DNA of 32,322 bases, from positions 1-32,322 of IMG/VR virus record IMGVR_UViG_3300042483_000676; one strand, 5' to 3'. Made by a program: the position numbers and the translations under genes. Position 1 is the stretch's first letter; every line of letters begins with the position of its first letter. Of this stretch, positions 3,232-22,322 are shown piece by piece. The DNA comes from a virus. The notes below the pieces were generated by a model. The model was not told the DNA's origin, made no database searches, and saw only the letters and a program-made list of their open reading frames with translations.

Positions 3232-6200
3232 TTATGGTGGGCAAGTACCCCAAATTGGTTTAGGTAATACCCAAGATATTGCGCCAGAAGCAAAATTTGA
3301 TGGTGTGGAAGGTATTAATGTCACACACCAACCACTTAAATCTTGATTAAAAACAACATTATTCCTAAACATATTGTTCATAGTATTAACATTTGAGACA
3401 TCCCAAGAACTAATGTCTTGATTGAACGCGGTTGCTCCAAAAAACATATCGTTCATATTAGTCACACCCGAAACATTCCAAGAACTAATATCTTGATTGA
3501 ATGTCGTACCATAAAATATTTGACCCATATTAGTAACATTCGAAACATTCCAAGAACTAATATCTTGATTGAATGTGGTTGCCCCAAAAAATAAAGCCCC
3601 CATATCTACAACACTCGACACATCCCAAGAACTAATGTCTTGATTGAACGAGGTTGCTCCACCAAACATACCGTTCATAGTAGTAACATTTGAGACATCC
3701 CAAGAACTAATATCTTGATTGAATGAGGTTGCCCCAAAAAACATTATTGTCGTAGATGTAACATTAGACACATTCCAAGAACTAATATTTTGGTTAAACG
3801 ATGAGTTAGCGAATGTTCCACCCATGTTGGTTACGTTGGAAACATCCCAAGAACTTATATCTTGATTAAATAGGGTATTATTAAAACTACCAACTAAATT
3901 TGTTATTGTTGATACATCCCACGAATTTATATTATTAACCGTTGTTAACCCTGTACAATTTATAAATAAAAGACCTAAAACGGTATTACTACTTAAATTA
4001 GGAATATCAATAACACTTGGTATATTTAAATTTATACAACCATTAAAAACCGAACCAACATTACTTAATACCACATCACCCCACCTTAACACGCTTATTA
4101 TTTTATCACGAGATGTAGTATCATAGGAGAATCCAAAAGAATTAATAGTTCCCGTTATAGTCACCGTGTAATCACCAATTACTGAGTAAGTATGTGTTCT
4201 ATTCGCATATGAATTAACAGATGTATTACCATCCCCCCATTCAATAGTTCCACTATAGGTGCCCAAAGAATCGTAAGGTAATGAAATACTATCACCAGGT
4301 GAATCTATAGACCATACTGTAATAAATGGTGATGGTGGTATATCACAACTAACACAAGATATATCATAATCAATCACTAGATTAACAATAACTTGATTAT
4401 CTTGTAAAGGATTAACTAGTTGTGTTGTACAATTTTTACTTACTTCCTCACAAGTTGTTGTTATTGTAATTCTATTTGAGATTATATCTATTGTTGTCCC
4501 TGACACACCATCAAAAGAATCTATTGTGTCTATTATAGTATCTGCCCATAATTGATCACTTGGATAGTCAGTTGCTCCCGTTGAAACGTAAAACTCGGTT
4601 TGTGCTGATTGTGAACCTATTTGCGCATATATTGAAAATATTGCTTCATTAATGATACAATTTGTATCCCCACTCGTTAAGTCAGTAAATCCCTCCAAAT
4701 ACATGGATTTAATGTCTCTTTTAGTAATCATCCCACTATTTTCAAATTGGTCACTACAAACATTATAGTATCTATAATTTGAATATTTTTTAGTACCTAT
4801 AAGTGTTTGATATTTTGTTAAAACACATCCGTCAGCATCAATTATTTCACAACTATAAGTTCCAGCGGTTAAACCTGTCACGGTACTACCCGTTTGGGAT
4901 CCTGTAGTTCCACCACTCCAAACATATGTAAAAGGTGGTTCTCCACTCGTTATAAATGCGGTTATTGATCCGTCATTACCAATCACAGGTTGTGTTGGTA
5001 GTAAATTAAAAAATACAGATTGACTATTATCAATAAAAATCGGAATAGTCTGAACACAAGCCGGTATTCCTGAGTCTTGTACGGTCAAACTATAATTACC
5101 ATATTTCAAATTTGTAAAAGTACTAACTGGTGTTGTGTTTGAGGTCGGGTTATATGAAGGCCCAACTAATGTAAATGAATATGGTAATGTACCCCCCGTA
5201 GAAACCGTAACTTGTAAAACACCATTGTTTTGACCACAAGTTGTTCCTGTTGTAGACCCACTAATGGTGTATAAATTTGTTGAGTTAATATTTGTAGTAG
5301 CAGTATAAGTACAAGCAATTGAACTCACGGTCACTAAATAAGTACCATTCGTTAGTCCGTAAAAAAACTGATTAGAATTATTTAAGGTTCCTGTTTGTTG
5401 AATCCCTGTTGAACCTGAAATCGACACTTGTAGGTTAGTAGCACTACTCAATCCGTTATCAACTAAAACTTGTATTATACCGGCATTTGTTGAGCAGATA
5501 GAATTTGTTGTGTTAATCGCAACACTTGTAAATGAATTAGGTGTTAATAAACTAACACTTTCATAGATTGTACAAAGTCCTGCATCTGTAACTAAAAATG
5601 AATATGAACCTGAAGTAAGTCCAGTAAAGTTTACCGAAGACCCAAAAGTAATTTCAACTTGACCTGTGGACGCACTAAAGAAATATGGTGGAGTACCATT
5701 TAACACTATAAACTCAACTTCTCCGTCATTTTGGAAGCATGTTGGTTGTGAAATAACTATAAACCCACCTGAGGTTATTGGTAAAACTTCATTAACCGTA
5801 AATAACTGAACATCCGTACAATTTTCACTATTTGTTATTGTTGCAGAATACGTTCCGGCAGTTAAACCAGTTATTGTTGCACCTGTTTGTGTGACGTATG
5901 AAGGATCCCAAGTTAGTGTATATGCCGAAATTGGTGATGTTAAACCTGTTAGGAAAATTTTACCACTACCAGGACCTAAACACGATGCGTCGTCAACAAC
6001 ATAACCCCCAAAAGTAAAAGGGTTCGATGGGTTGATTATTACTGATGCCGTAACACCTGTACAACCACCACCGTCATTTGCAACAATATAGTATGTTCCC
6101 GCAGATAATGACGTAAAATTATAGTTAGTCGTTACCGAAGTTGCTGAAGTAATATAAGTATCATCCCCATCATATAATTGGAATGTCGTAAATCCATAAA

Positions 6201-6534
6201 CACCAGATGTAAAACCGGTTATTGACCCATTATCAAATCCACATGTTGTGGGTTCTGAATCTATTGTTACGGTAGTTCCTGATGAGATATAAACCGATTT
6301 TACGATGGAGGCATTTCCACCATCAATTATTTCTAAAAAATAAGTTCCTCCCGTTAAACCACTATAATAGTACTCATATGGTGCCGTTAATCCAGAACTC
6401 GGTAATGGACAAGATGGTGAAATACAACTAACCGCAAACGGAGGTGTGTCTCCCGTAATTTGTAGGAAAACTGCCCCATCACCTCTGTTTTGACAATCGC
6501 CAGTTATATTAAATTGTAAAATAGATATACTCAT
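3232..6534 (-). CDS. Large multidomain adhesin-like tail protein: SprB-like repeats, PKD, DUF285
   Basis: An 1100-residue protein built from adhesion modules. Residues 1 to ~590 hold about seven SprB-like beta-sandwich repeats, each with an early Cys, a GxxPPYxF-type strand and a GLTxGTYxxxVxDxxxC ending. A Cys-containing linker domain follows (~590-740). A PKD-like domain (WGDGNT at 766, then [15 protein letters not shown]) covers ~745-800. From residue 869 there are eight 24-25-residue units ([12 protein letters not shown]...FNQD), the BspA/DUF285 surface-protein repeat. Families of this kind mediate attachment in Bacteroidota and other bacteria, so receptor binding by the tail is the likely role. 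The start ATG shares a base with the stop of the 995-residue gene upstream (TAATG), suggesting translational coupling with baseplate genes. Confidence 0.85.
3325..3930 (-). repeat. In-frame DUF285 tandem repeat (72/75-base period)
   Basis: Eight tandem units code for WDVSNVTNM-type repeats. The conserved Trp codon recurs at 3403, 3478, 3550, 3625, 3700, 3775, 3847 and 3919, giving periods of 75, 72, 75, 75, 75, 72 and 72 bases. Short blocks such as AAGAACTAATATCTTGATTG (plus strand) are nearly identical between units, so the array can expand or contract without a frameshift. Confidence 0.9.
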
Positions 6535-9521
6535 TATCCGTTACAAAAAATTTCAAAGTTTATTCCAACATTCAATTCAAAGTCATCAAAGTTTGGTGTA
6601 CAATTATTATTAAACACAACTAATTCTTCGGTGTCTTCATCTATATTATAACCATAACCTGATGTTAGTAAATTGGTGAATGTCTGTTGAATTGCGGTTA
6701 CCCATTCTTCAGGTGTTGGGAAACTTCCCGTTCCAATACCGGTAAAGAATTCATATTCCTCAATTTGAACTCCGTTAATTCTAACATCAACATACCACGT
6801 ACTTATTGTTGTATTTAATTGACAGTCATTAGGGTTTACACCTTGTGAAACAAAGAAGTCTTGTAATGTTTGATTTAACACAACCCCAAAAGAAGTAACG
6901 TTTGGATCTGTAGTCCAAGGATATAATCCACAAATCACTTGTTGTACAGGACAATCAAGTACATATAGTTGAGTTGTAAGATCACAAGGTTTACAAGGCA
7001 CAGGGATAAATTTACAACCTTCTTGTCTTCTCCACACAAATTTTTGTCTATGAAATATTGAATTTTCTAATCTAACACCTGTGTTCCATATCGTGGTTGC
7101 TGGTATCATTTGTTCAACTAACCGTACCCAATAATCACCCATACCATTAACAAAATCAATCATTGTTTGATATGTGAAGTTATCGTTTGGTATTCCCGCT
7201 TGTGTTAAAGACTCAAGATATCTCCAATAAATCATTTGTAATGTTGGGTATCCTCCTGTTTTACCATCAGTAATAAATTGACGGTTACGAGTGTTAATCA
7301 TATTTCTCCAAAATGTTTGAGCAAACTCAAAGAATGTTTTTTGTTTTGGTTTCGGGACTATAGTTGTCCAATCAATCCCTCCTGGTTTAGGATATGGATT
7401 TGGGGTATAACATGGTGAAGGTGGTGTGTAAAATAAACCTTGTTCAGGTATCGGATAATTGTATTCTCTAGACATAGTCCAAACATCATAAACCAAACCT
7501 TGAGCCGGATTCATCATAACATCTACGTTTTTAACGTTTAATGTTAAACATTCTTCACCAACAGAATAATAAGCTGTAAAACCGCCATCAGATGCGGTTC
7601 GTAATGTTGAGTTCGTATCTACCCAACTTTTTTTGTTGTCCTGAATATTTCTTAGTTTGTATCCTAAATCCATATACGGAAAATGTCTATATCGTTGCAG
7701 GTATTCTTCACCATAATTGAATGGCAAAAGTTGTGTTTGGTAATCAGGGTTGTTTCCCGTAAAAACTTCGTTCGTTGGGATTGCAAATTCTGGCATTCTA
7801 TGGTCAGGTGTTGACTGATACCACCCCCCACCAATTTGGAAGAAATATTCTTCTGTTGGTACCGGCATTTTTGGACAACCAAACTCATCAACAGGATAAT
7901 CATCCCTTGTCGTTAAAACATTTGCATTTGTTGTTGTCGTTGTAAACCCAGTGTATTGAACACCCTGAATTGAGAATATATTTGTCGTTTCGGACACCGG
8001 AAATTCTTGAGTAAAATTACCTAAACTGATTTGAGCGTATTGTTGGTTAAATTCAACCATATCAATTCTTCTATCGGCAACATAGATATGTTCATTAAAA
8101 TCAATAAGTGCTTCAGGAGCTCCAACCATTCTTAATAAACACTCAATTGATTTTCTTGTACCTTTTGATTTAAATAGGTAAGCCGAATTCAATATCAAGT
8201 TTCTATAAAACTGATAATTTATTTCTTCAGGTGTTGGTCCGATTTGAAGTCCTGGAAAACTATTAGGTTGGGTTGTGAAAACCGCCTGTAATAATTCTTC
8301 TTGAGATATTGGTGAAAAATTTGTAGCCCACCCTAAGGTTTGTGCTAAGTTTTTTAATAATTGGGAGGGGATATCGTTTTGAACACTATAGTGTACACTA
8401 TTGATATTCCCTAACGCTGTTATAAATGATCTCGTTTCGTCAAAACTTCTACCATATAGTTGTAATAACTTCTCAAATTTTTGATCGGTCGTATCGAATT
8501 CTTTCAACGCACCTGTGGTCATAAACCTTGAAATTAAGTTAGTATTGTATTGATCTAAATTATACGCAAAGTTATTAATTTGAGTTAAATAATTATCAAA
8601 TGATACTGTGGATATATCTAAATTCCAAATACCCCCAACAGGCCATCTAGCACTTTCTTTAGTAATTGCATAAGATCCATCATCTTGTTCCACCGGAACA
8701 AAGAATTGTGACGTATATGGAGGACTAACTTTTCTATTAAGTAAGAAATTTTCAACATTATCAAAATCCAAATTGAAGACCTTATTAATCTCGTAATCAC
8801 TTGGTCTAACAACCAAATATTCATCTGACACTTGTAAACCCCCAAAAGGATTTCCGTCAACTATTATTTTTAATGTTGTAGAATCACTATTTGTTGGATA
8901 TAAGTAGTTGAGAGGATATTGTAGACCATTTACGAACAAAACATACTTCTTATACTCAAGTGTCATATTTCTCAAGAGTGAAACAGGCATTTCATAAAAT
9001 CTCATATTTGTTTCTGCATTTACAGAAAAATCAATTTCAAAAGGATTTTGTATGGAAGATAAATATATCTCTAATGTTGTGTCATCCGATTGTTGATCGT
9101 ACACTATATTAATTGCGGTATTCTGTTTAACAAACGTTGGCGAAATAGGAGCAACCTCAAGTCCAGCTGGGAAAAAATTAATTATTTTTGTCACAGAAAC
9201 TGAGAACCTTTTAACTAAAGACCCATATTGTGTAAAGTTAGTGACTTGTGATAGATCGTAATTTGGATATACCCTATAATTGTTTGCTAATATATTTGCA
9301 GATTCTGCCTGACTATCAATATTCATTGACTCCAAACTGATTGGGTCTGAAAAAGTACCAATCGTGAAAGTCCTATTTTGTTTTTCACTAATACCTGTGG
9401 TAAAGTTAAAATTGGCTTGCGTTAGCCCACCACCAGTAACTAACTGAACTCCAACCAAGTTGTTTGAGAACTGATTTGCAGCACTACTCTGAGGGGGACA
9501 AAATAATTTATCTATAGCCAT
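6534..9521 (-). CDS. Large baseplate/tail structural protein with P2 gpI-like segment
   Basis: A 995-residue virion protein. Residues ~340-480 resemble the P2 gpI / TIGR02242-type tail protein region: a [15 protein letters not shown] helix, [11 protein letters not shown], then [18 protein letters not shown] leading into a short helix ending at LLRMVGAP. In P2-like phages that protein joins the baseplate wedge to the fibres. The flanking regions (1-340 and 480-995) are unrecognised; a cluster of Cys lies at the C-terminal side ([12 protein letters not shown]). It sits between smaller structural genes and the adhesin, consistent with a baseplate periphery or fibre-attachment role. Start and stop both overlap neighbours by one base (TAATG). 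Its length is far beyond gpI, so it is at best a fusion or a distant relative. Confidence 0.7.
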
Positions 9522-10426
9522 TAAGCTGTGATGTTATTAAAAGCTTTAGAGAAATCAATATTCTCACCACGATCCTGTCTAACCTCATATAACAAACTAT
9601 TAAATTGATCTTTAATTTCATACAAGTTGTATTGTTTGTAGATGTTGTTGTTAGCATCGTAAATGGTGTAAATACCATCCTCAATTGATTTAGTTTGATT
9701 ACCATAAAGAGCAATTGCAAGAGTTGATATATCTTGATCAACTATTTCTATTTCAGTCGTAATCGGATTGAAGAAGGTGTTTGTTATTATAATAGTTTGG
9801 TTTGGTTGACCAATATAAGGTGTTGCACTTGGTTTATTAGTTGGTGATGATGACGGAGATAAAGTACAAAACAAAAGATTTGTAGATCCTTCAACATATC
9901 TATATCTAATAGATTTCTGTGAAGTATTAGTTAAATTTTGAACAACTGGCTCACAATAAAATGATGAGGTAATAATCCTAAAAAAGTTTGGTATTTTTGT
10001 GCCATCCGAATTCAAATATTCAACTCTAAACCCAACTAAACCTTGATTAACAAATTTGTTTTTATATTCTGAAGGAACATTATTAAGATCAACAACAATA
10101 CCTTTAACATTTGGTAATGAAGATAAAACACCACAATCAGTTATTATAGTTCTGATTTCTGCAGGTCTTATCATAAGAGTGTAGATACCCAATTTATTGA
10201 ATTGGTCTGCCGGTAATTTTAAATTATATAATCCACCCAAGATTTCCACAGAATTACCACCAGTAGTGTCATTATTAAAATATGGTCTTAACACATCTTG
10301 AGCATTTAATGTCGTCAAAACAAAATTTTGAGTGTCGTCTCTAGACTCTGTGTATACCATCACAATCTGTACGTCTTCGGGACTTACATCTGCTGGTCTT
10401 ATCGTTCCATAATTTCCTGTTGCCAT
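9521..10426 (-). CDS. Putative baseplate structural protein
   Basis: A 301-residue protein of unknown family. It is soluble and beta-rich, with no signal peptide or membrane segment. A Ser/Pro/Thr linker (SPSSSPTNKPSATP, ~210-225) separates an N-terminal domain (~1-205) from a C-terminal one. Its position in the run after gp25 and gp6 corresponds to the T4 gp7-gp11 region, so a baseplate or fibre-linking part is likely, but no single T4 protein is recognised. The ATG is preceded by an A-rich AAAAAAAGGAAAAAG stretch, one of the few places with a GGA-like purine run, and by a TATTTATA motif 22 bases upstream. Its stop overlaps the next start (TAATG). Confidence 0.55.
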   Translation of the reverse strand: MATGNYGTIRPADVSPEDVQIVMVYTESRDDTQNFVLTTLNAQDVLRPYFNNDTTGGNSVEILGGLYNLKLPADQFNKLGIYTLMIRPAEIRTIITDCGVLSSLPNVKGIVVDLNNVPSEYKNKFVNQGLVGFRVEYLNSDGTKIPNFFRIITSSFYCEPVVQNLTNTSQKSIRYRYVEGSTNLLFCTLSPSSSPTNKPSATPYIGQPNQTIIITNTFFNPITTEIEIVDQDISTLAIALYGNQTKSIEDGIYTIYDANNNIYKQYNLYEIKDQFNSLLYEVRQDRGENIDFSKAFNNITA

Positions 10427-10448
10427 CGTATATTCTTTTTCCTTTTTT

Positions 10449-10456
10449 TATAAATA
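10449..10456 (-). promoter_or_regulatory. TATTTATA motif before 301-residue structural gene
   Basis: An exact TATTTATA on the coding strand, 22 bases before the ATG at 10426 and directly after the stop of the PKD gene. An AAAAAAAGG purine run follows, possibly aiding ribosome binding. Confidence 0.4.
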
Positions 10457-10457
10457 T

Positions 10458-11633
10458 TTACGTTACTACTTTTTCAATCGTAAAGTATTTGTATCCGTAT
10501 TTTTGTAAATCCCCAACATTATCAACCTCACCTAACCTCATCACATTCTCTAAAGGTGTATACTTACCCCTCTCTATGTAAACATTGGTTATTATTTCAG
10601 GTTGGTCTATAACATTGAGTAATCCCTCATTTTTTGTAATTCCTGTCATTAGAAGTTCATCAGGAACAAATCCATATGATTCTAAAAAATAAATTGTATA
10701 ATCCTCATAATCGTGATAGATCACATCATTCATTGTATACGCAGTATAAATCCCATTTGGATCTACCCCATAAAAAGTTCCAATACCACCTGTCGACCCC
10801 GTGACTTGAACACCTAATTTGTATTTACCCGCAACTAAATTATTTTTTGGTCCGTATTGTGCCAAGTCATTTAAAGTCGACTCTGTATAACCTGTAATTG
10901 GGAATGGGACAGAAGTGTAGTTATAAGAGTAATAATCGACAACATTTGTATTAGAATCTCCAGTAAATAGGTAATTGTAACTCACAGGAGTTGCACTCCA
11001 ACTACCCCCCGCAGGATAAAAAGTAATTGTACCATCAGGGTTGGGTATCGTAACATTTGTGAATGGGGTATTCACAGGTTTTTGTACTTTTGATATACCC
11101 CAAGGCGAATTAGCCGTTAATGTTATAAGATATTGGTTTTGACTAGTCGGATAAATATGTGTAATTGGCGTTATCCCCAATACGGTTTGATTCGGCGATC
11201 CATCACCCCAATCTAACGTGAAAGTTACTAAACTAAGAAACTTAATAAGTTCTAAATCGGATGTGTTATAGAATTTATAAGTATATGGGTTAATTGTATC
11301 GGCAGTGACGATAAAATTGTTTAAAACATCTGCCTGTACTATCATTCCATCAAAAGGAGAATAATAACCTATATCGACCGCAGATTCTGTAATCATTATA
11401 TTAACAGAAAGTCCCGTTAAAAATGATGTTCCACCTGTGTTTCCACTTAAAAGATATGACATCGGTAGATATACCCCTGTTTGACCTACATCACTTCTTG
11501 TTTGAGTTGAGTCTGTCAAACAACACGGGTCAATAAAATTTAGAATATTGGTATCGCCAGTAAATCCAACAAATGTTAAGTCGGATTTTATATTCTCGGG
11601 AGATATTACAAATTTATAATCAAGTGATTCCAT
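10458..11633 (-). CDS. PKD-domain-containing putative baseplate/tail protein
   Basis: A 391-residue protein with one PKD-like domain at about residues 115-190: strand FTLDWGDGSP (WGDG at 142-145), then THIYPTSQNQYLITLTA. PKD domains are Ig-like spacers found in surface and virion proteins. The N-terminal part has a Cys pair (DPCC) and Gly/Thr-rich loops; the C-terminal part (from ~200) is unrecognised. No signal peptide or membrane segment is visible. It begins at a TAATG overlap with the preceding gene and so is probably co-translated with its structural neighbours. It may be an exposed baseplate part or fibre connector; this is inference. Confidence 0.6.
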   Translation of the reverse strand: MESLDYKFVISPENIKSDLTFVGFTGDTNILNFIDPCCLTDSTQTRSDVGQTGVYLPMSYLLSGNTGGTSFLTGLSVNIMITESAVDIGYYSPFDGMIVQADVLNNFIVTADTINPYTYKFYNTSDLELIKFLSLVTFTLDWGDGSPNQTVLGITPITHIYPTSQNQYLITLTANSPWGISKVQKPVNTPFTNVTIPNPDGTITFYPAGGSWSATPVSYNYLFTGDSNTNVVDYYSYNYTSVPFPITGYTESTLNDLAQYGPKNNLVAGKYKLGVQVTGSTGGIGTFYGVDPNGIYTAYTMNDVIYHDYEDYTIYFLESYGFVPDELLMTGITKNEGLLNVIDQPEIITNVYIERGKYTPLENVMRLGEVDNVGDLQKYGYKYFTIEKVVT

Positions 11634-12439
11634 TATGGGTTTACGTATTCATACCAAATTATCGGTGATGTACTATCACCAACTCTAAGTTGAGTTGATG
11701 TAGAAAACACTTCGTAAGTTTTGTCAGTATAATCTAACTCTACCTTATAATAGAAATAGTCTGCATTATTGAATTGGAACTTATTTGGGGTAATTAAATC
11801 TTGTTTTATATTCGTCATCTGTTTAAAAATCCCAAGTCTAGCGTTAAAAAATTTTGCTGTCATATAAAAAGTTGAGATATCAATAAAGTTTCTATGTCTT
11901 AACCAATATATGTAAAACCCTTCTTTATCGGCTCCAATACTATCTAAAATCATTGTTGGTTTTTTTATTTCAACAGGTGGTTGAGAGGGATTAATAAATG
12001 CGGTTTCTGTGAGTCCTTGTTGTATTGGCAAAATAATCGACAAATATAATTGTTGAGTACTTTCATCAGGAGTATCATACAAATCGAGTTTAAAGAAAGA
12101 CTTTGTGAAAGGTTTAGAATAATAATAAATCTCTTGAACTGAAAATCCTTCATTTAAATAACTACTTGACCAGTTACCGACAGTATTCGCAGTAATTGGT
12201 AGTGAATCGTCATAAAAGTTAAATTCATAATCAATCGCAGTGTTAAAATTAGGATACACTTTATTAGAAAATCTTGCAACTTCAAAATCTGCAGCAATAC
12301 CAGTAACCTCTTTAATTGCACTAACTTCCAACTCGGAAATACTATCATCACGACCCATGAAATCCCATTGCATATTGATCGGGATATTCAAATATTTGTT
12401 CGTATCATCTTTAACTATTTTAATTCTATTCACACTCAT
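11633..12439 (-). CDS. Putative baseplate/tail structural protein
   Basis: A 268-residue protein of unknown family, beta-rich and rich in Tyr and Phe. Its N-terminus carries NKYLNIPINMQWD (Lys15, Tyr16, Asn18, Trp25), which matches DKYINVNLEQDWE in the 1875-residue protein encoded just upstream at the same residue numbers. The two may share a docking segment. No catalytic motif, signal peptide or membrane segment is visible. It overlaps the preceding gene by 14 bases and the following gene by one (TAATG), so it belongs to a tightly coupled structural block. T4 gp8-gp11 are positional counterparts, but nothing in the sequence ties it to one of them. Confidence 0.55.
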   Translation of the reverse strand: MSVNRIKIVKDDTNKYLNIPINMQWDFMGRDDSISELEVSAIKEVTGIAADFEVARFSNKVYPNFNTAIDYEFNFYDDSLPITANTVGNWSSSYLNEGFSVQEIYYYSKPFTKSFFKLDLYDTPDESTQQLYLSIILPIQQGLTETAFINPSQPPVEIKKPTMILDSIGADKEGFYIYWLRHRNFIDISTFYMTAKFFNARLGIFKQMTNIKQDLITPNKFQFNNADYFYYKVELDYTDKTYEVFSTSTQLRVGDSTSPIIWYEYVNP

Positions 12440-14225
12440 CGGATATTGGTTCTGGAATTGTACTTATGTTTATTGGAACCTTCCCTAATTGTGAATAATC
12501 ACTCGGTATATTGTATCCCTCAGGGGTTATTCTAAAAATTGAATTTAGGAATGGGTAATGAGCATCATTTAAATAAGGGTAATCAACCCCAACACCATCC
12601 GTATCAATAAATCCATATGGGTATAAATCTCTCCAACGAAAAAGTGCGTTCGTTGTTGAATAATATGAATAGTCAGGGATGCCAACAACATTTGCACTAT
12701 CACCTTCCTCAATGTAATCAGAAAAGGATCTGATCTGAACTCCTCTGTGTGGTTGATAAAAGTAACCAGGTTGGTTTGTCTGCGGTAATATATTATCTAA
12801 CTGAAACCATTGCTGATTATACGTAAATTTATGTTGATAGGTTGAGATCACTCTCTCTAATTGTTCAAAATCATTCCACTCACAAAAATCACCATCAATA
12901 ACATCACCTTTAGATAACATATCAAAATAATAAAAAGGACCTGTTCCAAATAACGAATTATACTGACTTTGATTAATCATCGTACTCGAATTGGAGTTAT
13001 TTGTATCCCACCAAATTTGAGGTTTTGATTTATCTAAAAAAGTGTTAAAATCCCACCCTTGTTTTAATTTGTTAGTCCAACCAAAGTATCCTCGCCAAAT
13101 AGTCGTAAAAAATAATTCACTAACAGGTCTTTTTTGGTTATCCAAAAGTGGTCTAGTATCAACATCACAATTAAATGATAATGTATATGATCTTGACCCT
13201 TCCTTTACTGATGTTCTTTTTCTTTGGTCTGGGGTTAAAGATTTTATTTCACACTTTTGTTTATTATTATAGATATTTTGTTCATAACCAGCATTCACCA
13301 AAACCGCACATTCAGGATTAGTTAAAATTTTATGTTTCCTAACATAATATTCACTGATGGTATCTGCAGAATTTGCAGGATTAATAACTCGTTTAAGTGT
13401 ACCTTGACTTAAACTAATAAATGTTGTTCCAGTGTATCCCACATTTCTGATACTAAAAATATAGTCTTCAGATCCTGAACCACCATCACCCAAACTTGAT
13501 ACTTGGAAGAATGAATTACCATTATAGTTTGTGGTAAGTAGGACAAATTCACCCTGTTGTAATCCATGAGTCATAGGACATTTAAAAGTTATAGAGTTTT
13601 TTTGTTGATCCGTTCCGGCAATTATCACATAAGGTATTCCTTGACTTGCAGTCCAATTCCAAGAAAGATTTGTTTCTGGTTCGATAGCATACAAGGATTT
13701 GTTATAATCATTATCATATACATAACTTAAATAATGTGACCAATTGTAAGTTGTTGCACTTACAGATTTAAAATCTAAATGTTTTCCATTACCAAAAGTA
13801 TATCCCGAAACATTAATATCCGTTCTAATAAAATCAAACTCAGGATATTGTGGGAAACCATCCCACGGAATTGCAGAATTTACTGATTGAGATTGTACCG
13901 AAGGGACATTCCCTGTGGGATAGTATGAAGATGCGTTTTTAATTGCGTTTGTATAATATAAATTATCTCTATAAGGTGGATAGATTGTTGATCCTGTGTA
14001 CGCATTTTCAAAAACTAACATAAACTTAACAACAGGTCTAAATGTAAAAGATTCTTGTCGTTCGTCGTCAAAAACATCAGAGAGCTTTAAGTCTACAGAC
14101 CTGTCAAATTCTACAAGTTCTTTTTGTGTCTGAACTAATGGTAAATTAAGTTGTTGGTCCTGTTTAGGAGCCCCTTTATACCTCTGGGTAGATTGTATTA
14201 TTCTTGTTGACGGATTTATTTCCAT
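12426..14225 (-). CDS. Putative baseplate/tail structural protein
   Basis: A 599-residue protein of unknown family. It starts with a hydrophilic, Gln-rich arm (~1-60, with RIIQSTQRYKG and LPLVQTQKELV) that looks extended and could thread into a neighbour. The remainder is aromatic-rich (many Tyr, Trp, Phe) and probably beta-structured, as in many phage baseplate and tail proteins. No membrane segment, signal peptide or enzyme motif is visible. The start overlaps the stop of the 1875-residue gene (TAATG), and its own end overlaps the next gene by 14 bases, so production is probably coupled. The role is inferred only from position in the tail cluster. Confidence 0.55.
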   Translation of the reverse strand: MEINPSTRIIQSTQRYKGAPKQDQQLNLPLVQTQKELVEFDRSVDLKLSDVFDDERQESFTFRPVVKFMLVFENAYTGSTIYPPYRDNLYYTNAIKNASSYYPTGNVPSVQSQSVNSAIPWDGFPQYPEFDFIRTDINVSGYTFGNGKHLDFKSVSATTYNWSHYLSYVYDNDYNKSLYAIEPETNLSWNWTASQGIPYVIIAGTDQQKNSITFKCPMTHGLQQGEFVLLTTNYNGNSFFQVSSLGDGGSGSEDYIFSIRNVGYTGTTFISLSQGTLKRVINPANSADTISEYYVRKHKILTNPECAVLVNAGYEQNIYNNKQKCEIKSLTPDQRKRTSVKEGSRSYTLSFNCDVDTRPLLDNQKRPVSELFFTTIWRGYFGWTNKLKQGWDFNTFLDKSKPQIWWDTNNSNSSTMINQSQYNSLFGTGPFYYFDMLSKGDVIDGDFCEWNDFEQLERVISTYQHKFTYNQQWFQLDNILPQTNQPGYFYQPHRGVQIRSFSDYIEEGDSANVVGIPDYSYYSTTNALFRWRDLYPYGFIDTDGVGVDYPYLNDAHYPFLNSIFRITPEGYNIPSDYSQLGKVPINISTIPEPISDECE

Positions 14226-17200
14226 TATTCTTCTACGGTTGCAACATAAAGTTTATAGAATCTATTGATTGCTGTTTTTCCATTGTTTAAACCAAAATAG
14301 AAATGGTATGGTGCTCCAACAACAACAGAATTTTGATAATTAGTACTTGGGTCACCTTGACTTATATTTGCTAATGGTGTTATTGGGAGTGGATTTCCAT
14401 TAATATCAAAACTAGCAAGGTAGCCAACTTGTGTTAAACTTGTTTGATACTTTTCATTTGGAGATATAAAGTCTAAATCTTGATATTTTTTACTGAAGAA
14501 TCCTGCATTGAAAGATGAGTTTGTGTACCAATTATTATCTTCAGAACCAAATATATTAGGAGTACCTGTGTATGTATCGGGAGTCGTTATAAACCATTTG
14601 TAATGAGGTACAACTTGTGATTTTGGGTATCCAAATTTTTCTTCAATCAATGGATTAAAATTATATGTCTCAATTCCTGGTGACATTATTTTTCTATATC
14701 TAAGTTCAGGAGTACTCGCAGTAAAGAATAGACCCATAATTGGTTTAATCTTTTCTGGGATGACTGAATTTGGAATCCCATTTTGATTATCTCCAAAATA
14801 GATATAATTAGGTGATGGTACATTTTCAGTAATGAAAGGTAGTACTTTCCATTCTGAATTAATCGACAACATTTGAGCCCAATCACCATCAATTCTATAA
14901 CCCCCACGATCACTATTAAAGAATTGTATAATACCTTTACCCTCACTACTATCCCCACCTGTTGATATAGGTATCATTCTTTGTCTAACACCTTCATTTA
15001 GTATACGAGACAAGAACCCTAACTGAACAATACTTGAATTATCCTGATATGAAGAAGATTTTAACTGATCCGCATAATAAGAACCAAAGTCATTATCATC
15101 ACCTGAACAACAAATTTCATTAATAAAACTATCTCTAGGTCCTAAATCGACCACAGTCGTTGGGAATTGTATTTGTTTTTGATTATATCCCAAACCTGGA
15201 AACTTTAATAAATTTCCACCAATAGGAGTATCAGGAGAATCCTTACCTATGAATTTATTGGTTACGCTGTTCCAAGGCGATGATCGATAATAAAAAACAT
15301 TTGTTAATTCATTAAACATTATCACATCCTCACAATAATTGTAAGTTGTTTCTTGTTGTATACTGAATGTTGTTCTCTTGTTAAAATTAAACATATAGAG
15401 AACTCCATTTATCCAATTGTTTTGGAATGTTTGAGCAAATACACCTCTACAAGCTGCAAAATTCATAGTGAATCTTGTTTTCCACTCCAAGAAAAGACGA
15501 GCATCTTCAGGATATTCAGCTAAGTAAGTTTTATTTAATAAACAATAACATCCGTTAATCATTCTATTTTCAGGAACTGAACATGATCCTTGAGGGAGTA
15601 CACCGACATTTGATCCTGATCCAGAATAACACGCTAATGGTACCATTCCTTCACAAGTTAATGTCTCAGTTAATCCTGTCGTAATTGGGTCATCGTCAGC
15701 ACTTTCACCACTTGCTAAATCACCACCCGCAGAAATCGTTGGTTCTGTTTGTAACCCACTAGCAGCATACATCGCAAAATTATTATTTTGATGAAGAGCA
15801 TAACCTGTATGTGATTCAACTCCGTTTTCGATTTGGGTAGAAGTTGGTAATCTATCACTTCTCATTATAATATTAGTACTTTGGAATTGTACACCAGTTA
15901 GTCCATATCGGTAGTATGCTGGCGAATAAAGTGCCGATAAATTACCCTCAACATTTGGGTTATTAAACCATCCATCACAATAATTATAGTATTGTTTTTC
16001 TTGACAATTTTGATTACACCCTGTAGGACAAATTGGTGTTGGGATATCGTTACTTGTTTTAATTGTTTTTGTGAATAATTGTAAGTTCCAAGCTAAGAAA
16101 CCACTACCCCCAACATAAGGTGATGTATTAGGCATAAATGTATAGTCTGTACCCCCTATCATATTTGTCAAACCTCCACCAATAGTTAATTGAGTCGATG
16201 TTTGCCAGTTACTTGGTGCTGGGTAACCAAATGGAGTGTAATTTCCAATCCCCGTTAAAGAAGTATCATCAGTACATAAATAAAAATACGGCAAACTTGA
16301 GGTAAATGCCGAGAATTGTATTACATCAGGTATAAATGAAAATGATGGGAAATATAAATCAGTTGAGTTATTTGTTGGTGTATTATGACTCAAAGGCTTA
16401 TTACCCGAACTATAGGAATAACCTTTAATTGGTTGGTTTATATAATAAGATCCTTCAATTGTCACATAATCATTTAATGATGTATATCCAAATATTTTAG
16501 ATAAATCATACTTAACTGTTTGCTTAGGCGTATGTGGGTCAACCCCTCTAACAAAAATACAAACCTCAAGTCCTTGCCACTCATTCATAGAGGTAATAAC
16601 ATCAGGTATAGTTCTTTGAATCATAGTTGTTGTATCAGTACTTGGACAAGCTGGTGTTAAATAAATTACGTCATGTGAAAGATATCCAATCGGATAATAT
16701 GTCGATGGAAATGAAGTACTTTGTAATCCAAAGAAATCACTCGCAGTGAGTCCAGTAACCATTTGGAAATATTCAACATCTGTTGGGTATTGTAGGTAAG
16801 CCTGCTCCACACTACTATTGCCCGTAACCGGTAATTGACTAACTTGTGGTAAATTAAGGACTACTTGACTTGATAATGAGTTCGTTGGGGAAGTCGGATT
16901 TGCATAATTTATAGTAACAGTTGTTTGACCTGTTAATGTAGTACCAGTAATTGCGTTTGTTCCAAATTGATTTAATGTTGCTCCCGTTAGATTTATTAAT
17001 CTATTAGGTGATTGTGAATCAGTAAAATTAGGATCTTGGAAAGTACATGCATTTCCGATCCCAATTTGTGAGATAGTACCCGGACTCATTAAAATCACAA
17101 CGACTTGATCTGTAAAAGATTGTGACGCTAATGATGGATTTATTTTAGTTTCTATTTGATTTACCTGACCACCAGTATTAAAATACTTATCTCTTAAGTT

Positions 17201-19852
17201 AAAATCATTAAGTCTTTGTGGAAAAGTTGCAGATAACGGATACGCAAAATACCTTTCATCACGGTTCACATCCAATGAATCTTTTCTTGCCGACCATAAA
17301 AATGGTTGAGGTGCGTGTAATAAATATTTTTCATTACCATATAATCGATTTGGGTTAGTTGACGATAAAACATCATACCCTGAAACCATTCTTGTAAAAT
17401 CTAAAGAAGCTTGTATCGCTAAATCTTGATTGATATCATCATCACCAATAAGAGTTCCCAAAGTTTTATATGGACCTGAACTACCACACTGAAATGGTTC
17501 GTCTGGATCTTCAGATGTTACTAACAAATTTGGGTGATCTAATAAGTACGATCCTGCAGAATTCACCGGTGCAATAATAGAGTTAGCAGGAATTAAAGTC
17601 ATATCGTAGAATCCTGTTGACCCTCCTTGAGCAGCCGCATTAACACTGTTTTCAATTGAATTTGAATCGAAATCATCATCTTGTTCTGCATTTCCACACG
17701 CACAATCGCAACTTGTACAATCAGGATATGAAATCATTGGTAATCCAATTCTTGGGAATCTTTTAACTTTAATTGCCGCAAGTATCGCAAACGCGGTAAA
17801 CGCAGCGGCTAAAGCAATTTTAAAGGCGGCAATTGCGATTTGGGCAATTCCCCATAATATTAATCGTATTACTTCACCTAAAAATCCTGCATTAATAACA
17901 GCACCTAAACCAATACTTAAGATACCTGCCGCGGAATTGATTGCCTGAATACCTGACTGAATAGCTTCTAATCCTGATACAATCGCATCATATGTTAAAA
18001 AAATACCTAAAACTATTAAAACATATTTTAAAATTGGCCAAGTAAATGACACAAAATGGGCAATAAATAAAAGAGTAAGGATTGGAAAGGTTAATACATT
18101 AATTAAAACGTTAAAAACAAAAAATATTGCATCAAAATTTCTAATAATATCATTAACTGGAAATGTATTTACCGTAGACTTACAACTTCTATCGTCAATT
18201 TCTTTTATACCTAAATGTTTTGCTCTTCCAATTCCGTTTTTATATCTATCAAGAAACATTGCGGTAGTATAAACCTTATTATAATTAAATTCATAAAAAG
18301 TATCTTCACAATTAATCGCTTCTTCTGGATTCACATAGTCATCCCAATCAGTCGAAAATGAATACGATTGTAATAAGTCAAAAAGTTGTGATGAGTATTG
18401 ATTAAATGAGAAAATCTGATCTTGTGTTGAATCTAAAGGAACTCCGTTTATTTGAAGGGTGTCTCCAACATTAAGTTGTATTGAATTTATACTTCCAATG
18501 TAGGGTAACCCATTGATTATAATTTGGTAGGACTCTGAATTAATCACATCTGACGTTGATAAACCTGAATCAAACGACATTGTATACGTTATACCTGATG
18601 TTAATCCAGCTGCAATCGTATAATCATAAGGTGTTGAGTCATATGTTTGGAATGGATCTATACCAGAATTACTCCATCCATACTCCTTAACATTAGGAAC
18701 TAAAAAGTCAGCACGAAGAAAACTAGATTGTAAACCTTCCTCATTTTGCCATCTAAATTTAAACCTATATTTTCCTTTTGTTGGTACACCCACTTTAGGG
18801 TCATTTGACATTGATAATTGACCGAATTCGTTAGTATAAACGTAATCCATATTCATAGGAACATTTAATAAGTACGTACCATCCCCATCAATTACTTTCC
18901 CCCCTTGTTCAATTGCATATCTCTCTAAAATTGGTAAACCATTAGTATCCGAAAATATCGTTTGACGAATCGCTTGTATTTCTCCAGGACCTGCAACCAT
19001 CTCACAAAGATTTCCTGTGTTCTGTTTTGGTTTACAACTAACTTTTAACGCATTATCATCAGTGGTTGATATAATTGATCCCATGAAGATTGAAGATGGT
19101 TGTATCGTAAGATTTGCAAGTTTAGAGAGATCAAAATCTACTCTTGTAATACCAACTTGGCAAAGATCGTTATCACCCCAAAATGGTCTAACATCTACAT
19201 CAAAAACTAAATTTTTAATCTGTGGTAATTCATTTAAGTTTGTTGAGGATTTAAATCTTGCACCATTTACTTGAGTTTCGGTTGCCAATCCTTGCAATAT
19301 TAAATCCTGTGGTACTACTGAAAAACAACCTATGTCTGAAATATCCACATCCATTACAATAGTTTGAGTTCCAACAGGAACTCCAAAAATCATAAAGTCA
19401 CCACTTTCATTAGTCGATACGGTGAATCTATAATACTTGTCAAAGACTTCTATATATGAACCATCCATTAACATATCAGCCTTATTAGGAAATGTTCCTG
19501 TTGAGGAGTGTCCATTATATGATGGTAACTTTGGTAATAGATTATATCGATATCCTTCTTCGTTAGTATCATTAACCGATTTAAAAGGATAAAGATCTGT
19601 TATTGCAGGATCTAATTCATCAGTCGCATCTAAAGGTATGAATACTGAAACTTTCGCATTTGGTAATCCAAACCCATTATTTACATAAACTCGACCCGTT
19701 ACAACACCATAGTCAGAACAGAATCTAGTATATACGTCGTTTGCTAAAATCTTCAAAGATAATATCTCTAAAGATTCCCAATCTTGCTCTAAATTAACGT
19801 TTATGTATTTATCGACACCTACTTGTGTTCGTATTCTATATGATTTTGGCAT
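14225..19852 (-). CDS. Giant baseplate-region protein with hydrophobic segments (gp7 position)
   Basis: An 1875-residue protein, the largest in the window. Residues ~50-175 resemble a carboxypeptidase-regulatory-like beta-sandwich (VTGRVYVNNGFGLPNAKVSV, later ESGDFMIFGVPVG). Residues ~573-697 form a long hydrophobic, Ala/Ile/Leu-rich stretch with several potential membrane helices, followed by a basic patch (KVKRFPR) and a Cys cluster (CTSCDCAC, 712-719). The C-terminal two thirds is Cys-, Tyr- and Asn-rich and unrecognised, with further clusters (CPTGCNQNC, ENRMINGCYC). It follows gp6, where T4 has gp7, but has no clear gp7 similarity and is nearly twice its length. A membrane-inserting tail part is one reading; buried hydrophobic packing, as in tape measures, is another. 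Confidence 0.7.
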   Translation of the reverse strand: MPKSYRIRTQVGVDKYINVNLEQDWESLEILSLKILANDVYTRFCSDYGVVTGRVYVNNGFGLPNAKVSVFIPLDATDELDPAITDLYPFKSVNDTNEEGYRYNLLPKLPSYNGHSSTGTFPNKADMLMDGSYIEVFDKYYRFTVSTNESGDFMIFGVPVGTQTIVMDVDISDIGCFSVVPQDLILQGLATETQVNGARFKSSTNLNELPQIKNLVFDVDVRPFWGDNDLCQVGITRVDFDLSKLANLTIQPSSIFMGSIISTTDDNALKVSCKPKQNTGNLCEMVAGPGEIQAIRQTIFSDTNGLPILERYAIEQGGKVIDGDGTYLLNVPMNMDYVYTNEFGQLSMSNDPKVGVPTKGKYRFKFRWQNEEGLQSSFLRADFLVPNVKEYGWSNSGIDPFQTYDSTPYDYTIAAGLTSGITYTMSFDSGLSTSDVINSESYQIIINGLPYIGSINSIQLNVGDTLQINGVPLDSTQDQIFSFNQYSSQLFDLLQSYSFSTDWDDYVNPEEAINCEDTFYEFNYNKVYTTAMFLDRYKNGIGRAKHLGIKEIDDRSCKSTVNTFPVNDIIRNFDAIFFVFNVLINVLTFPILTLLFIAHFVSFTWPILKYVLIVLGIFLTYDAIVSGLEAIQSGIQAINSAAGILSIGLGAVINAGFLGEVIRLILWGIAQIAIAAFKIALAAAFTAFAILAAIKVKRFPRIGLPMISYPDCTSCDCACGNAEQDDDFDSNSIENSVNAAAQGGSTGFYDMTLIPANSIIAPVNSAGSYLLDHPNLLVTSEDPDEPFQCGSSGPYKTLGTLIGDDDINQDLAIQASLDFTRMVSGYDVLSSTNPNRLYGNEKYLLHAPQPFLWSARKDSLDVNRDERYFAYPLSATFPQRLNDFNLRDKYFNTGGQVNQIETKINPSLASQSFTDQVVVILMSPGTISQIGIGNACTFQDPNFTDSQSPNRLINLTGATLNQFGTNAITGTTLTGQTTVTINYANPTSPTNSLSSQVVLNLPQVSQLPVTGNSSVEQAYLQYPTDVEYFQMVTGLTASDFFGLQSTSFPSTYYPIGYLSHDVIYLTPACPSTDTTTMIQRTIPDVITSMNEWQGLEVCIFVRGVDPHTPKQTVKYDLSKIFGYTSLNDYVTIEGSYYINQPIKGYSYSSGNKPLSHNTPTNNSTDLYFPSFSFIPDVIQFSAFTSSLPYFYLCTDDTSLTGIGNYTPFGYPAPSNWQTSTQLTIGGGLTNMIGGTDYTFMPNTSPYVGGSGFLAWNLQLFTKTIKTSNDIPTPICPTGCNQNCQEKQYYNYCDGWFNNPNVEGNLSALYSPAYYRYGLTGVQFQSTNIIMRSDRLPTSTQIENGVESHTGYALHQNNNFAMYAASGLQTEPTISAGGDLASGESADDDPITTGLTETLTCEGMVPLACYSGSGSNVGVLPQGSCSVPENRMINGCYCLLNKTYLAEYPEDARLFLEWKTRFTMNFAACRGVFAQTFQNNWINGVLYMFNFNKRTTFSIQQETTYNYCEDVIMFNELTNVFYYRSSPWNSVTNKFIGKDSPDTPIGGNLLKFPGLGYNQKQIQFPTTVVDLGPRDSFINEICCSGDDNDFGSYYADQLKSSSYQDNSSIVQLGFLSRILNEGVRQRMIPISTGGDSSEGKGIIQFFNSDRGGYRIDGDWAQMLSINSEWKVLPFITENVPSPNYIYFGDNQNGIPNSVIPEKIKPIMGLFFTASTPELRYRKIMSPGIETYNFNPLIEEKFGYPKSQVVPHYKWFITTPDTYTGTPNIFGSEDNNWYTNSSFNAGFFSKKYQDLDFISPNEKYQTSLTQVGYLASFDINGNPLPITPLANISQGDPSTNYQNSVVVGAPYHFYFGLNNGKTAINRFYKLYVATVEE

Positions 19853-19928: not shown

Positions 19929-21770
19929 CTATGAGAAATTAACAGATGTTAGATTAAGAACCCTAACGGTAATGTCTTTGTTAGGATAACGAATTTGATA
20001 AATTTGTGTTGGGGTAGCAAATAGGGTATCTGCCGTTGGTTGAATCTGTCTATTCACAACATCTGAATAAGGCATGGATGTTTGAGATGAGGAATATTGA
20101 CCACCAACTTGATTAAAAAACGATATGTCTGAAATACTAACAACACCATTTTCTGTCTGTATTAATCTTCTAAGCTCAGAGATATTAACATTTTGACCCA
20201 ATTCTCTAACTAATGGGTTAAAGAACTCACCAACAATTTGAATTGTTTTTGCAACGATCGCTCCTTGATTTTGACTATTATCTAATACAACATCAACAGT
20301 AACCGCCAAATCAATCGTCTCGGCAGCTTCAATAGAAATGTAATCGTTAATCATCCTATAGTTCGATAGATAATTTGCAACATTCTGTTTTAATGTATTT
20401 GAAACAACGTTTGTTAAAGAACCACTAGTGTCGTAAGACAACATTTTAATTCTGATTTTATTATTTTCTTCAGTAATCGCAACTTTTGCAGGTGCCCCAA
20501 ATTGAGAAGGCATCGTTCGTATAATTGAATTATAATCATTAACCGTCACCGCTCTGTTTTGAGCCGCAAAGTTAAATGATACCATATTCCTAACATCATC
20601 AAGTGTTGGTTGGTTCGCTCCTCCAATTGCGGCCGTCACATTATTACATTGTAAACTATTAATCACACTTTTATTCGCGGTTTCAGATGGTCCGTTAACT
20701 GCAAATGAAACCGTTCCAATTTGATTAATTGTATTTATACCAAGATTACTAGCCAATCCACCACCTATCCTATATTGGACGAATAGTGTCGTATTTGGAG
20801 TTAATGCCGCTCCCATAGAGTAGTTGTTAGTATATCTGCTTAAATCAAATCCTTTTCCATCACGAGCAAACTCCCTAAGTTGTTCTTCTGCTGAAATATT
20901 TCCACCACCAAAAGTCATTTTACAAAAACCTTCAGGAGTATATTCAGAAATAAACTTGTTTGATGTCGTAATATATCTACCAACTTTAATTCCAGGTTGA
21001 TCTGATACTTTGGTTGGGTCTTCAATAAAAACTCTGTCTTGCACTAAAGCATCAACCTCAAACCATCTATCATTACCCACCGTTAAGAAATCTTGAGGAT
21101 TTGGTATTGTAGAATATTGGGTTCCTTGTTTTAAAAGGAGACTTGTGATACCTAACACATTTTTTTCAGGTAAGAATAATTCTAAATAAGGTTTAACATC
21201 ATTTGGAGTAATAACTCTTTTATATACTTTTGTTATACCATTAACAACCACATCCCTTTTTATAATGGTATAGTTTAATAACTTTCCATTTGAATCAAAG
21301 TTAGGTACTTTAACTCTATTTGGCGATCCTTCAGCATTTATTGGTGAGGCAAAATCAATATCGTATACAGTCTCAAAAGGTTGTCCCCCACCATTTACTT
21401 GAGACCCTCTTCTTAATATCCCACAATATCTTAAATCTTCTCGATCTCCAAATGCTGGTACCGTAATTGAAAAGTCAATTAATGCAACTGAAGGTCTTTG
21501 TCCCGGTATTTTTAAACCGTAAGTTCTTGCAATATTATAAATTGAGTTTTTTTGTTGCGCAAACTGAAGTACGGTTTCTTGTATACTTCTGTCTATTTGA
21601 TAATTTAAGTTATCTGTTACAGCAGCATTCAAATCTAACATCACTGAGAAAATACCAGCGTCGTTAAAGTTTTGAACTAATTCAGGGTAATAAGTTCTTG
21701 TGAAATTAATTAATTCTGTCCTTACCCCTTGAAAGTCTCTTACGGTGTAGGAAATTTTTTTTTCTGCCAT
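19929..21770 (-). CDS. 6: Baseplate wedge protein, T4 gp6-like (Baseplate_J)
   Basis: A 613-residue protein matching the T4 gp6 / Baseplate_J type; T4 gp6 is 660 residues. The N-terminus (MAEKKISYTVRDFQGVRTEL) and the helical segment with MLDLNAAVTDNLNYQIDRS are characteristic. The repeating beta domain and the C-terminal region with VNDYNSIIRTMP and LVRELGQNVNISELRRLI are as expected for J-like wedge proteins. gp6 dimers form the wedge ring around the tail tube and hold gp25. The gene lies 6 bases after gp25, as partners often do. A GT- and A-rich spacer of 76 bases with a GATAAATA motif separates it from the giant gene that follows. Confidence 0.9.
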   Translation of the reverse strand: MAEKKISYTVRDFQGVRTELINFTRTYYPELVQNFNDAGIFSVMLDLNAAVTDNLNYQIDRSIQETVLQFAQQKNSIYNIARTYGLKIPGQRPSVALIDFSITVPAFGDREDLRYCGILRRGSQVNGGGQPFETVYDIDFASPINAEGSPNRVKVPNFDSNGKLLNYTIIKRDVVVNGITKVYKRVITPNDVKPYLELFLPEKNVLGITSLLLKQGTQYSTIPNPQDFLTVGNDRWFEVDALVQDRVFIEDPTKVSDQPGIKVGRYITTSNKFISEYTPEGFCKMTFGGGNISAEEQLREFARDGKGFDLSRYTNNYSMGAALTPNTTLFVQYRIGGGLASNLGINTINQIGTVSFAVNGPSETANKSVINSLQCNNVTAAIGGANQPTLDDVRNMVSFNFAAQNRAVTVNDYNSIIRTMPSQFGAPAKVAITEENNKIRIKMLSYDTSGSLTNVVSNTLKQNVANYLSNYRMINDYISIEAAETIDLAVTVDVVLDNSQNQGAIVAKTIQIVGEFFNPLVRELGQNVNISELRRLIQTENGVVSISDISFFNQVGGQYSSSQTSMPYSDVVNRQIQPTADTLFATPTQIYQIRYPNKDITVRVLNLTSVNFS

Positions 21771-21776
21771 ATACTA

Positions 21777-22235
21777 TTAAATATTGATGATGATAAAATC
21801 TTGTGATTCAAATGCTGAGTTAGTTATTCTATAATCTATTTTAATTCTTGCAGTATGTTCAAGTTGTGAAATGTTTGGAACAGAAAACTCCCTTTCACCA
21901 TACTGATTTATAGTATATCCTTTATCCTCTAATCCTGTTGATCCTGGTTCTACAGTAATATTTGTAATTTGTAGGTTAGGCATAAAAGTTCTTACTGTAT
22001 CCCGAATCTCCGCTTCAATGTCAGAAAATGTTGGACCATCAAGTGGTTCAAATATAAATTCATATAATCTAGTTCCAAAATTTGGTAAAAAATATCTTGA
22101 CCCTTTTTTAGTTAAAAGTAGATGAACTAAATTTGACCTAGTTTCCCCTTCGGTAGATTCAGTAACATCTAAATATCTTCCTGTGAATGAATCAATAAAA
22201 GGAAAAGAAATACCGTATGTAATGCCGTTTGCCAT
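21777..22235 (-). CDS. 25: Baseplate wedge protein, T4 gp25-like
   Basis: A 152-residue protein of the gp25 / GPW family, a wedge subunit that starts sheath assembly. The core motif is NFGTRLYEFIFEPLDGPTF followed by a helix with IEAEIRDTVRTFMP; a C-terminal strand (HTARIKIDYRI) follows. The frame is open further upstream to an ATG at 22295, but that extension is AT-rich with unusual content (FYLKKIELIFICD) and would run through the polyU tract of the preceding terminator. The start at 22235 (MANGITYG) fits the family length better and has a TATTTATA motif 6 bases upstream. It is the first gene after the replication operon terminator and opens the structural block. Confidence 0.9.
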   Translation of the reverse strand: MANGITYGISFPFIDSFTGRYLDVTESTEGETRSNLVHLLLTKKGSRYFLPNFGTRLYEFIFEPLDGPTFSDIEAEIRDTVRTFMPNLQITNITVEPGSTGLEDKGYTINQYGEREFSVPNISQLEHTARIKIDYRITNSAFESQDFIIINI

Positions 22236-22241
22236 ATCACA

Positions 22242-22249
22242 TATAAATA
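22242..22249 (-). promoter_or_regulatory. TATTTATA motif before gp25
   Basis: An exact TATTTATA on the coding strand, 6 bases before the chosen gp25 start. It overlaps a weak promoter-like pair, TTTACT (22268-22273) and TATATT (22246-22251), spaced 16 bases. The 58 bases between the terminator and the gene must hold any promoter for the structural operon, and nothing stronger is visible. Confidence 0.4.
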
Positions 22250-22293
22250 TAAGTTCTATTTTTTTTAAGTAAAAACTATAAAAATTATCTAAC

Positions 22294-22322
22294 AAAAAAA
22301 AATCACTACCGAAGTAGCGATT
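22294..22322 (-). terminator. Intrinsic terminator with UUCG loop after nrdA
   Basis: On the minus strand AATCGCTAC, loop TTCG, GTAGTGATT forms a 9-bp stem with one G-U pair, closed by the stable C(UUCG)G tetraloop, and is followed by about nine T. It starts 9 bases after the nrdA stop and separates the replication/nucleotide operon from the structural genes. Confidence 0.9.

Follow-up and report, generated by a model that had tools for sequence, protein, structure and literature searches.

Directly behind the gp6-like baseplate wedge gene of a viral contig we found a gene for an 1875-residue protein that carries about 125 consecutive, mostly hydrophobic residues, beginning with a membrane-grade helix kept in every diverse relative compared. 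We tentatively propose, at somewhat below even odds, that the protein is structural, part of the baseplate of a contractile tail, and that its hydrophobic block is shielded at rest and inserts into the host envelope when the baseplate rearranges. It is poorly resolved how contractile phages handle the lipid layers in their path, and the solved wedges are soluble machines; our literature search found no account of multi-helix membrane segments in wedge proteins. If a protein at the wedge position does insert into a membrane, the baseplate would itself be a device that acts on membranes. If the block is a buried core instead, this would still be a new and very common kind of baseplate protein.

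A giant gene behind gp25 and gp6

The window is the whole stretch of DNA analysed, 32,322 nucleotides of IMG/VR record IMGVR_UViG_3300042483_000676. The first-pass annotation had placed an 1875-residue protein in a baseplate operon, and the frame is indeed open over 1875 codons on the minus strand (Table 1); the plus-strand reading of the same interval is full of stops and was rejected. No Pfam family names the protein, and PHROG, NCBIfam and PDB sequence searches returned nothing that names its family. In the representative loci the gene order is gp25, gp6 and the gene of the 1875-residue family, and the genes downstream are identical in kind wherever the contigs extend far enough. The genes on the 3' side encode proteins of 599, 268, 391, 301 and 995 amino acids, none of a known family, and searches of the 599- and 268-residue proteins against the PDB gave chance-level matches only. 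The best conserved downstream gene encodes the 301-residue protein (window 9521-10426), at 72-94% in most relatives and 51% in locus L171, yet it fits no known family and isolated phages have no match for it. The window also encodes, at 3232-6534, an 1100-residue protein with DUF285 (E 3e-76) and SprB repeats, likely a host-surface binding protein of a Bacteroidota phage.

Table 1. Positions in the window of the 1875-residue protein gene, its parts and its neighbours
Feature	Position	Strand	Basis or remark
Giant baseplate-cluster protein, 1875 aa	14225..19852	(-)	ORF and family searches
Residues 1-45, N-terminal segment	19718..19852	(-)	about 0.8 conserved; low prediction confidence
Residues 44-251, transthyretin-like / carboxypeptidase regulatory-like domain	19100..19723	(-)	fold search and PF13620
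Residues 403-490 (about 400-495), beta-rich domain, fast-changing	18383..18646	(-)	pLDDT about 88
C557, ahead of the hydrophobic block	18182..18184	(-)	invariant in 46 aligned sequences
Residues 573-605, helix A, conserved membrane-grade helix	18038..18136	(-)	hydropathy and alignment
Residues 606-697, variable hydrophobic extension	17762..18037	(-)	relatives differ in length; hydrophobicity kept
Residues 695-701, basic patch KVKRFPR	17750..17770	(-)	sequence
Residues 712-719, CxxCxCxC (YPDCTSCDCAC)	17696..17719	(-)	C712, C715 and C717 invariant in 46 aligned sequences
Residues 1451-1500, conserved C-terminal core (NNWINGVLYMFNF)	15353..15502	(-)	kept in distant short relatives
gp6-like baseplate wedge protein, upstream gene	19929..21770	(-)	PHROG baseplate wedge, E 3e-19
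gp25-like baseplate wedge protein	21777..22295	(-)	PF04965, E 5e-11
599-aa protein, directly downstream, order conserved	12426..14225	(-)	no known family
Three more genes (268, 391, 301 aa), order conserved	9521..12439	(-)	no known family

One protein search yielded 84 relatives, and two profile searches of viral contigs confirmed at least 592 and at least 591 places for the family. Hundreds of members come from environmental samples and none from isolated phages, of which 50,697 records gave no tblastn match to the 1875-residue protein or to L079, L171 or L172. The superfamily spans 809 residues (L172) to over 2200 (L213). A record of 272 kb (G001, the contig of L019) holds the same cluster together with sheath and hub genes, from which we conclude that the tails of the group are contractile and its genomes large; its sheath protein (G001 116037-119387) is unusually large, at 1116 residues, with the known sheath match confined to the C-terminal part. 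The phages carrying the family are probably large, uncultured and Bacteroidota-infecting.

Contigs with very distant relatives have been assigned to one rumen Bacteroidales MAG, one Bacteroidota MAG and one Prochlorococcus single-cell genome; gp6 adjoins the gene in all three, and gp25 is present in two. The phage-like contig inside the Prochlorococcus genome (L171), which has the same baseplate cluster, comes from a cyanophage of this group or else from a Bacteroidota phage present as a contaminant. The short relatives L079 (8001-11504, 1168 aa) and L212 (gene from about 3938, 1181 aa) are without the central region; in the former the Cys motif is followed by a second pair of strongly hydrophobic helices, and the latter has a hydrophobic pair near residues 693-733. 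Some copies are split: in L057 (3116-6981) the gene breaks within the hydrophobic block, where ...LLLTFVR is followed by an out-of-frame jump of ~35 codons (junction near 4740) that may reflect either a true deletion or faulty assembly, and L048 and L052 are split at other places.

Domains, hydrophobic block and cysteine bracket

Residues 44-251 form a transthyretin-like beta sandwich with a TNxxGxFxxxxxPxG-type motif, in agreement with the carboxypeptidase-regulatory-like domain read earlier from the sequence. Structure search with the AlphaFold model superposed this region on carboxypeptidases N and D, at their C-terminal domains (Z 9.9 and 9.5; 2.0-2.3 Å, 76-80 residues), the match with Z 9.9 being 2nsm (2.0 Å over 76 residues). 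The domain belongs to PF13620, which all eight aligned family members matched, weakly (best E 3.4e-5), the 1875-residue protein alone reaching 15.5 bits, under the cut-off of 32.3. The segment ahead of it, residues 1-45, is a candidate contact with gp6.

Both AlphaFold models, of residues 1-1155 (46 sequences, pLDDT 64) and of residues 745-1875 (pLDDT 62), were only partly useful. They describe a protein rich in beta strands, with long helices at 575-645 and 655-695 whose pLDDT is about 37-71 and whose placement is not given. The beta-rich domain at 403-490 gave weak structural matches only. A fold search with the C-terminal half found no match at Z 2 or more; because the model is poor there, this is no evidence of a new fold. 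Weak cupin matches from the first Foldseek search were set aside. The protein has no N-terminal hydrophobic signal.

The hydrophobic stretch described by the first-pass annotation stood up to comparison. Mean Kyte-Doolittle hydropathy (KD) is 1.59 over residues 573-697, against -0.19 for the whole protein, and charge is confined to about 9 of the 125 residues. The best 125-residue window (KD125) scores 1.60, where 2000 shuffles reached at most 0.97, nine T4 baseplate-region proteins at most 0.19, and any other scored ORF of the window at most 0.51. In the 272-kb relative, too, no other ORF of 250 or more amino acids has a hydrophobic zone as long. It is not uniform, comprising four 20-residue segments (586-605, 612-631, 640-659 and 672-691) that are membrane-grade on the simple hydropathy scales KD and GES.

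The first of these segments lies in helix A. At the position of helix A, the best-scoring stretch is never below GES 20 or KD 1.78 in any of the 99 diverse relatives; GES 28 is reached in 93 of them, and the best 20 residues are uncharged in 83. N581 and H599 within the helix are nearly invariant. Going by hydropathy, such conserved helices class the product as a putative integral membrane protein.

Beyond helix A the relatives diverge in length. The block ranges from one helix to about four, with ~45 residues in total in L044 or L066 and ~130 in L037, and the single helix of the shortest relatives sometimes has Glu, Asp, Lys or Arg inside (L170, L223, L238). Among close relatives 96% of the hydrophobic positions in residues 606-697 stay hydrophobic, and pairwise identity is 0.60 there versus 0.84-0.91 in the flanks. 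Strict hydrophobicity with drifting sequence is the usual pattern for lipid-facing helices.

An invariant bracket of cysteines surrounds the block, C557 before it and YPxCxxCxC after it. The basic patch and the CxxCxCxC cluster noted in the first pass are both present (Table 1); the fourth cysteine, at 719, is not conserved. Among relatives with the downstream YPxCxxC, a script found the upstream Cys in 56 of 57, and the exception, L247, carries one by eye (DESCESENVKFPTN). The upstream Cys is present in 16 of 36 relatives that do not have the motif (Fisher p 1e-9 against the motif carriers, a value confounded by descent). C557 and C712/C715/C717 probably pin the ends of the loop together, through a metal or a disulfide; the AlphaFold model has low pLDDT at these four residues. 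A subgroup (L171:10001-14914, L176, L180-L185) has a strongly Cys-rich central region, with up to 62 Cys in 1510 residues (4.1%), and mostly does not carry YPxCxxCxC; its members are possibly disulfide- or metal-rich tail proteins. For large Bacteroidota phages, the transthyretin-like domain, helix A, the Cys bracket and an NNWINGxLYxF core make an annotation signature.

Proposed insertion into the host envelope and other readings

We infer that the protein is part of the virion, where the N-terminal segment and the transthyretin-like domain would probably join it to the gp6 ring. The hydrophobic block, of one to four helices, would be looped out between Cys 557 and the CxxCxC at 712-717 and, in the resting baseplate, shielded between subunits. 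Rearrangement of the baseplate on the host would then expose the block, which would insert into the host envelope, helping to seat the baseplate or loosening the membrane ahead of the tail tube. The earlier suggestion that the block inserts during injection is possible. A more specific version has a Cys-clamped multi-helix hairpin on the wedge proteins that contraction sets free to make a ring in the host envelope, serving as anchor or pore; this version we consider rather unlikely.

What speaks for insertion is the loose sequence held under strict hydrophobicity, together with the variable number of helices. A rival account, which we hold almost as plausible, is that the block never meets lipid: helix A would be buried in the baseplate with gp6 or with its own copies, and the extension would be a hydrophobic bundle in a soluble assembly. 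The block would then resemble the single membrane-grade helix of T4 gp7, presumably buried there too. That helix (residues 887-906 of the product of L252:7061-10159, GFGFIAITLLTMFINVGLTL; conserved pattern RFVHPxGFGFxxITLLTxFIN) scores GES 41.0 and KD 2.07, is conserved in distant gp7 proteins, and belongs to a protein present in the solved baseplate structures. The GenBank record of T4 gp7 notes a predicted integral membrane domain. The 1875-residue protein scores GES 41.9, which overturns the premise of the first pass that a membrane-like segment is foreign to gp7; T4 gp11 reaches GES 36.9. Since T4 gp7 is a wedge protein with an equally hydrophobic helix, one such helix is no proof of membrane insertion. 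The near-invariance of N581 and H599 inside helix A likewise speaks for specific packing, and burial is also favoured by the minimal relatives, which hold helix A alone, some with charges, and by the three-helix bundles that gp6 and gp7 relatives form (PMC6300606, PMC10457771). However, the known core bundle of a gp7 relative is N-terminal, whereas helix A is at about residue 450-600. The hydrophobic zone spans 65 residues here and 21 in T4 gp7, with KD50 and KD125 of 1.95 and 1.60 against 0.54 and 0.05; T4 baseplate proteins as a set reach KD50 of at most 0.89. In addition, the extension varies in sequence and length yet stays hydrophobic, unlike a tightly packed core. Insertion and burial thus stand nearly level, and our lean to insertion is very slight.

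Two further accounts place the block in a membrane by other routes. The protein could be a non-virion protein of the host membrane or an assembly platform, such as one that keeps nascent baseplates at the inner membrane, and a multi-helix block would be natural in a membrane protein; we consider this improbable, as the gene stays between structural genes even in very divergent relatives and the protein has large folded domains typical of tail proteins with no hydrophobic signal at its N-terminus. The first-pass annotation had offered a tape-measure-like buried segment as an alternative. That the block is tape-measure-like or ejected, and travels through the tube to make a channel in the inner membrane, is the least probable account. 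Other phages have tape-measure proteins that are credited with aiding DNA transit and that turned up when hydrophobic and transmembrane segments were searched for (TP901-1, PMC5099701). The gene studied here, however, sits in a wedge cluster behind gp25 and gp6, its product is rich in beta strands, and it matched no PHROG tape-measure family. Moreover, the 272-kb relative has a separate tape-measure-like protein of 614 residues beside the hub and sheath genes, which by position and composition would be the tape measure. That protein has no hydrophobic segments, which leaves the 1875-residue protein as the best candidate of the cluster to act on a membrane.

Comparison with known systems

Within the protein, the PF13620 domain differs from those of carboxypeptidases in having a long insertion and in being one domain among several, with no enzyme attached. 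Of uncharacterized proteins, A0A8S5LA66 (Myoviridae sp. ctPuP5, 994 aa), a structure match, is 42% identical over 371 aligned columns. Flavobacterium phage immuto and Microcystis phage Mel-JY01 have distant gp6 relatives and a baseplate gene upstream in the same order, but their large proteins (1265 and 1336 aa) lack the hydrophobic block and the CxxCxC and show no similarity by profile; homology to the proteins of 1265-1400 aa that follow gp6 in other phages was rejected, as there was no profile signal. Agrobacterium phage Milano has Cys-rich contractile-tail proteins and a disulfide-locked baseplate (PMC10811340), which offers an analogy for the relatives with 3-4% Cys, the bonds here being putative.

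The first-pass annotation had assigned the protein to the gp7 position. As a statement of gene order, directly behind gp6, this held; as homology it did not, since hhalign of the superfamily against six gp7 proteins gave a probability of 0.2% and there was no PHROG match. The gp7 family is also marked by a 1:2 complex with gp6, held by a core bundle and a trifurcation domain; for the C-terminal half of the 1875-residue protein, the fold search with its low-confidence model returned nothing at Z 2 or more. We therefore do not file the protein as a member of the gp7 family, and "gp7" is a positional label only, although the protein may work like gp7. With T4 gp7 (Straboviridae) it shares the place of its gene, the very large size of a wedge protein and a membrane-grade helix of equal strength. 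T4 gp7 has one such helix and the 1875-residue family up to four, and it is the length of the hydrophobic zone that sets the two apart.
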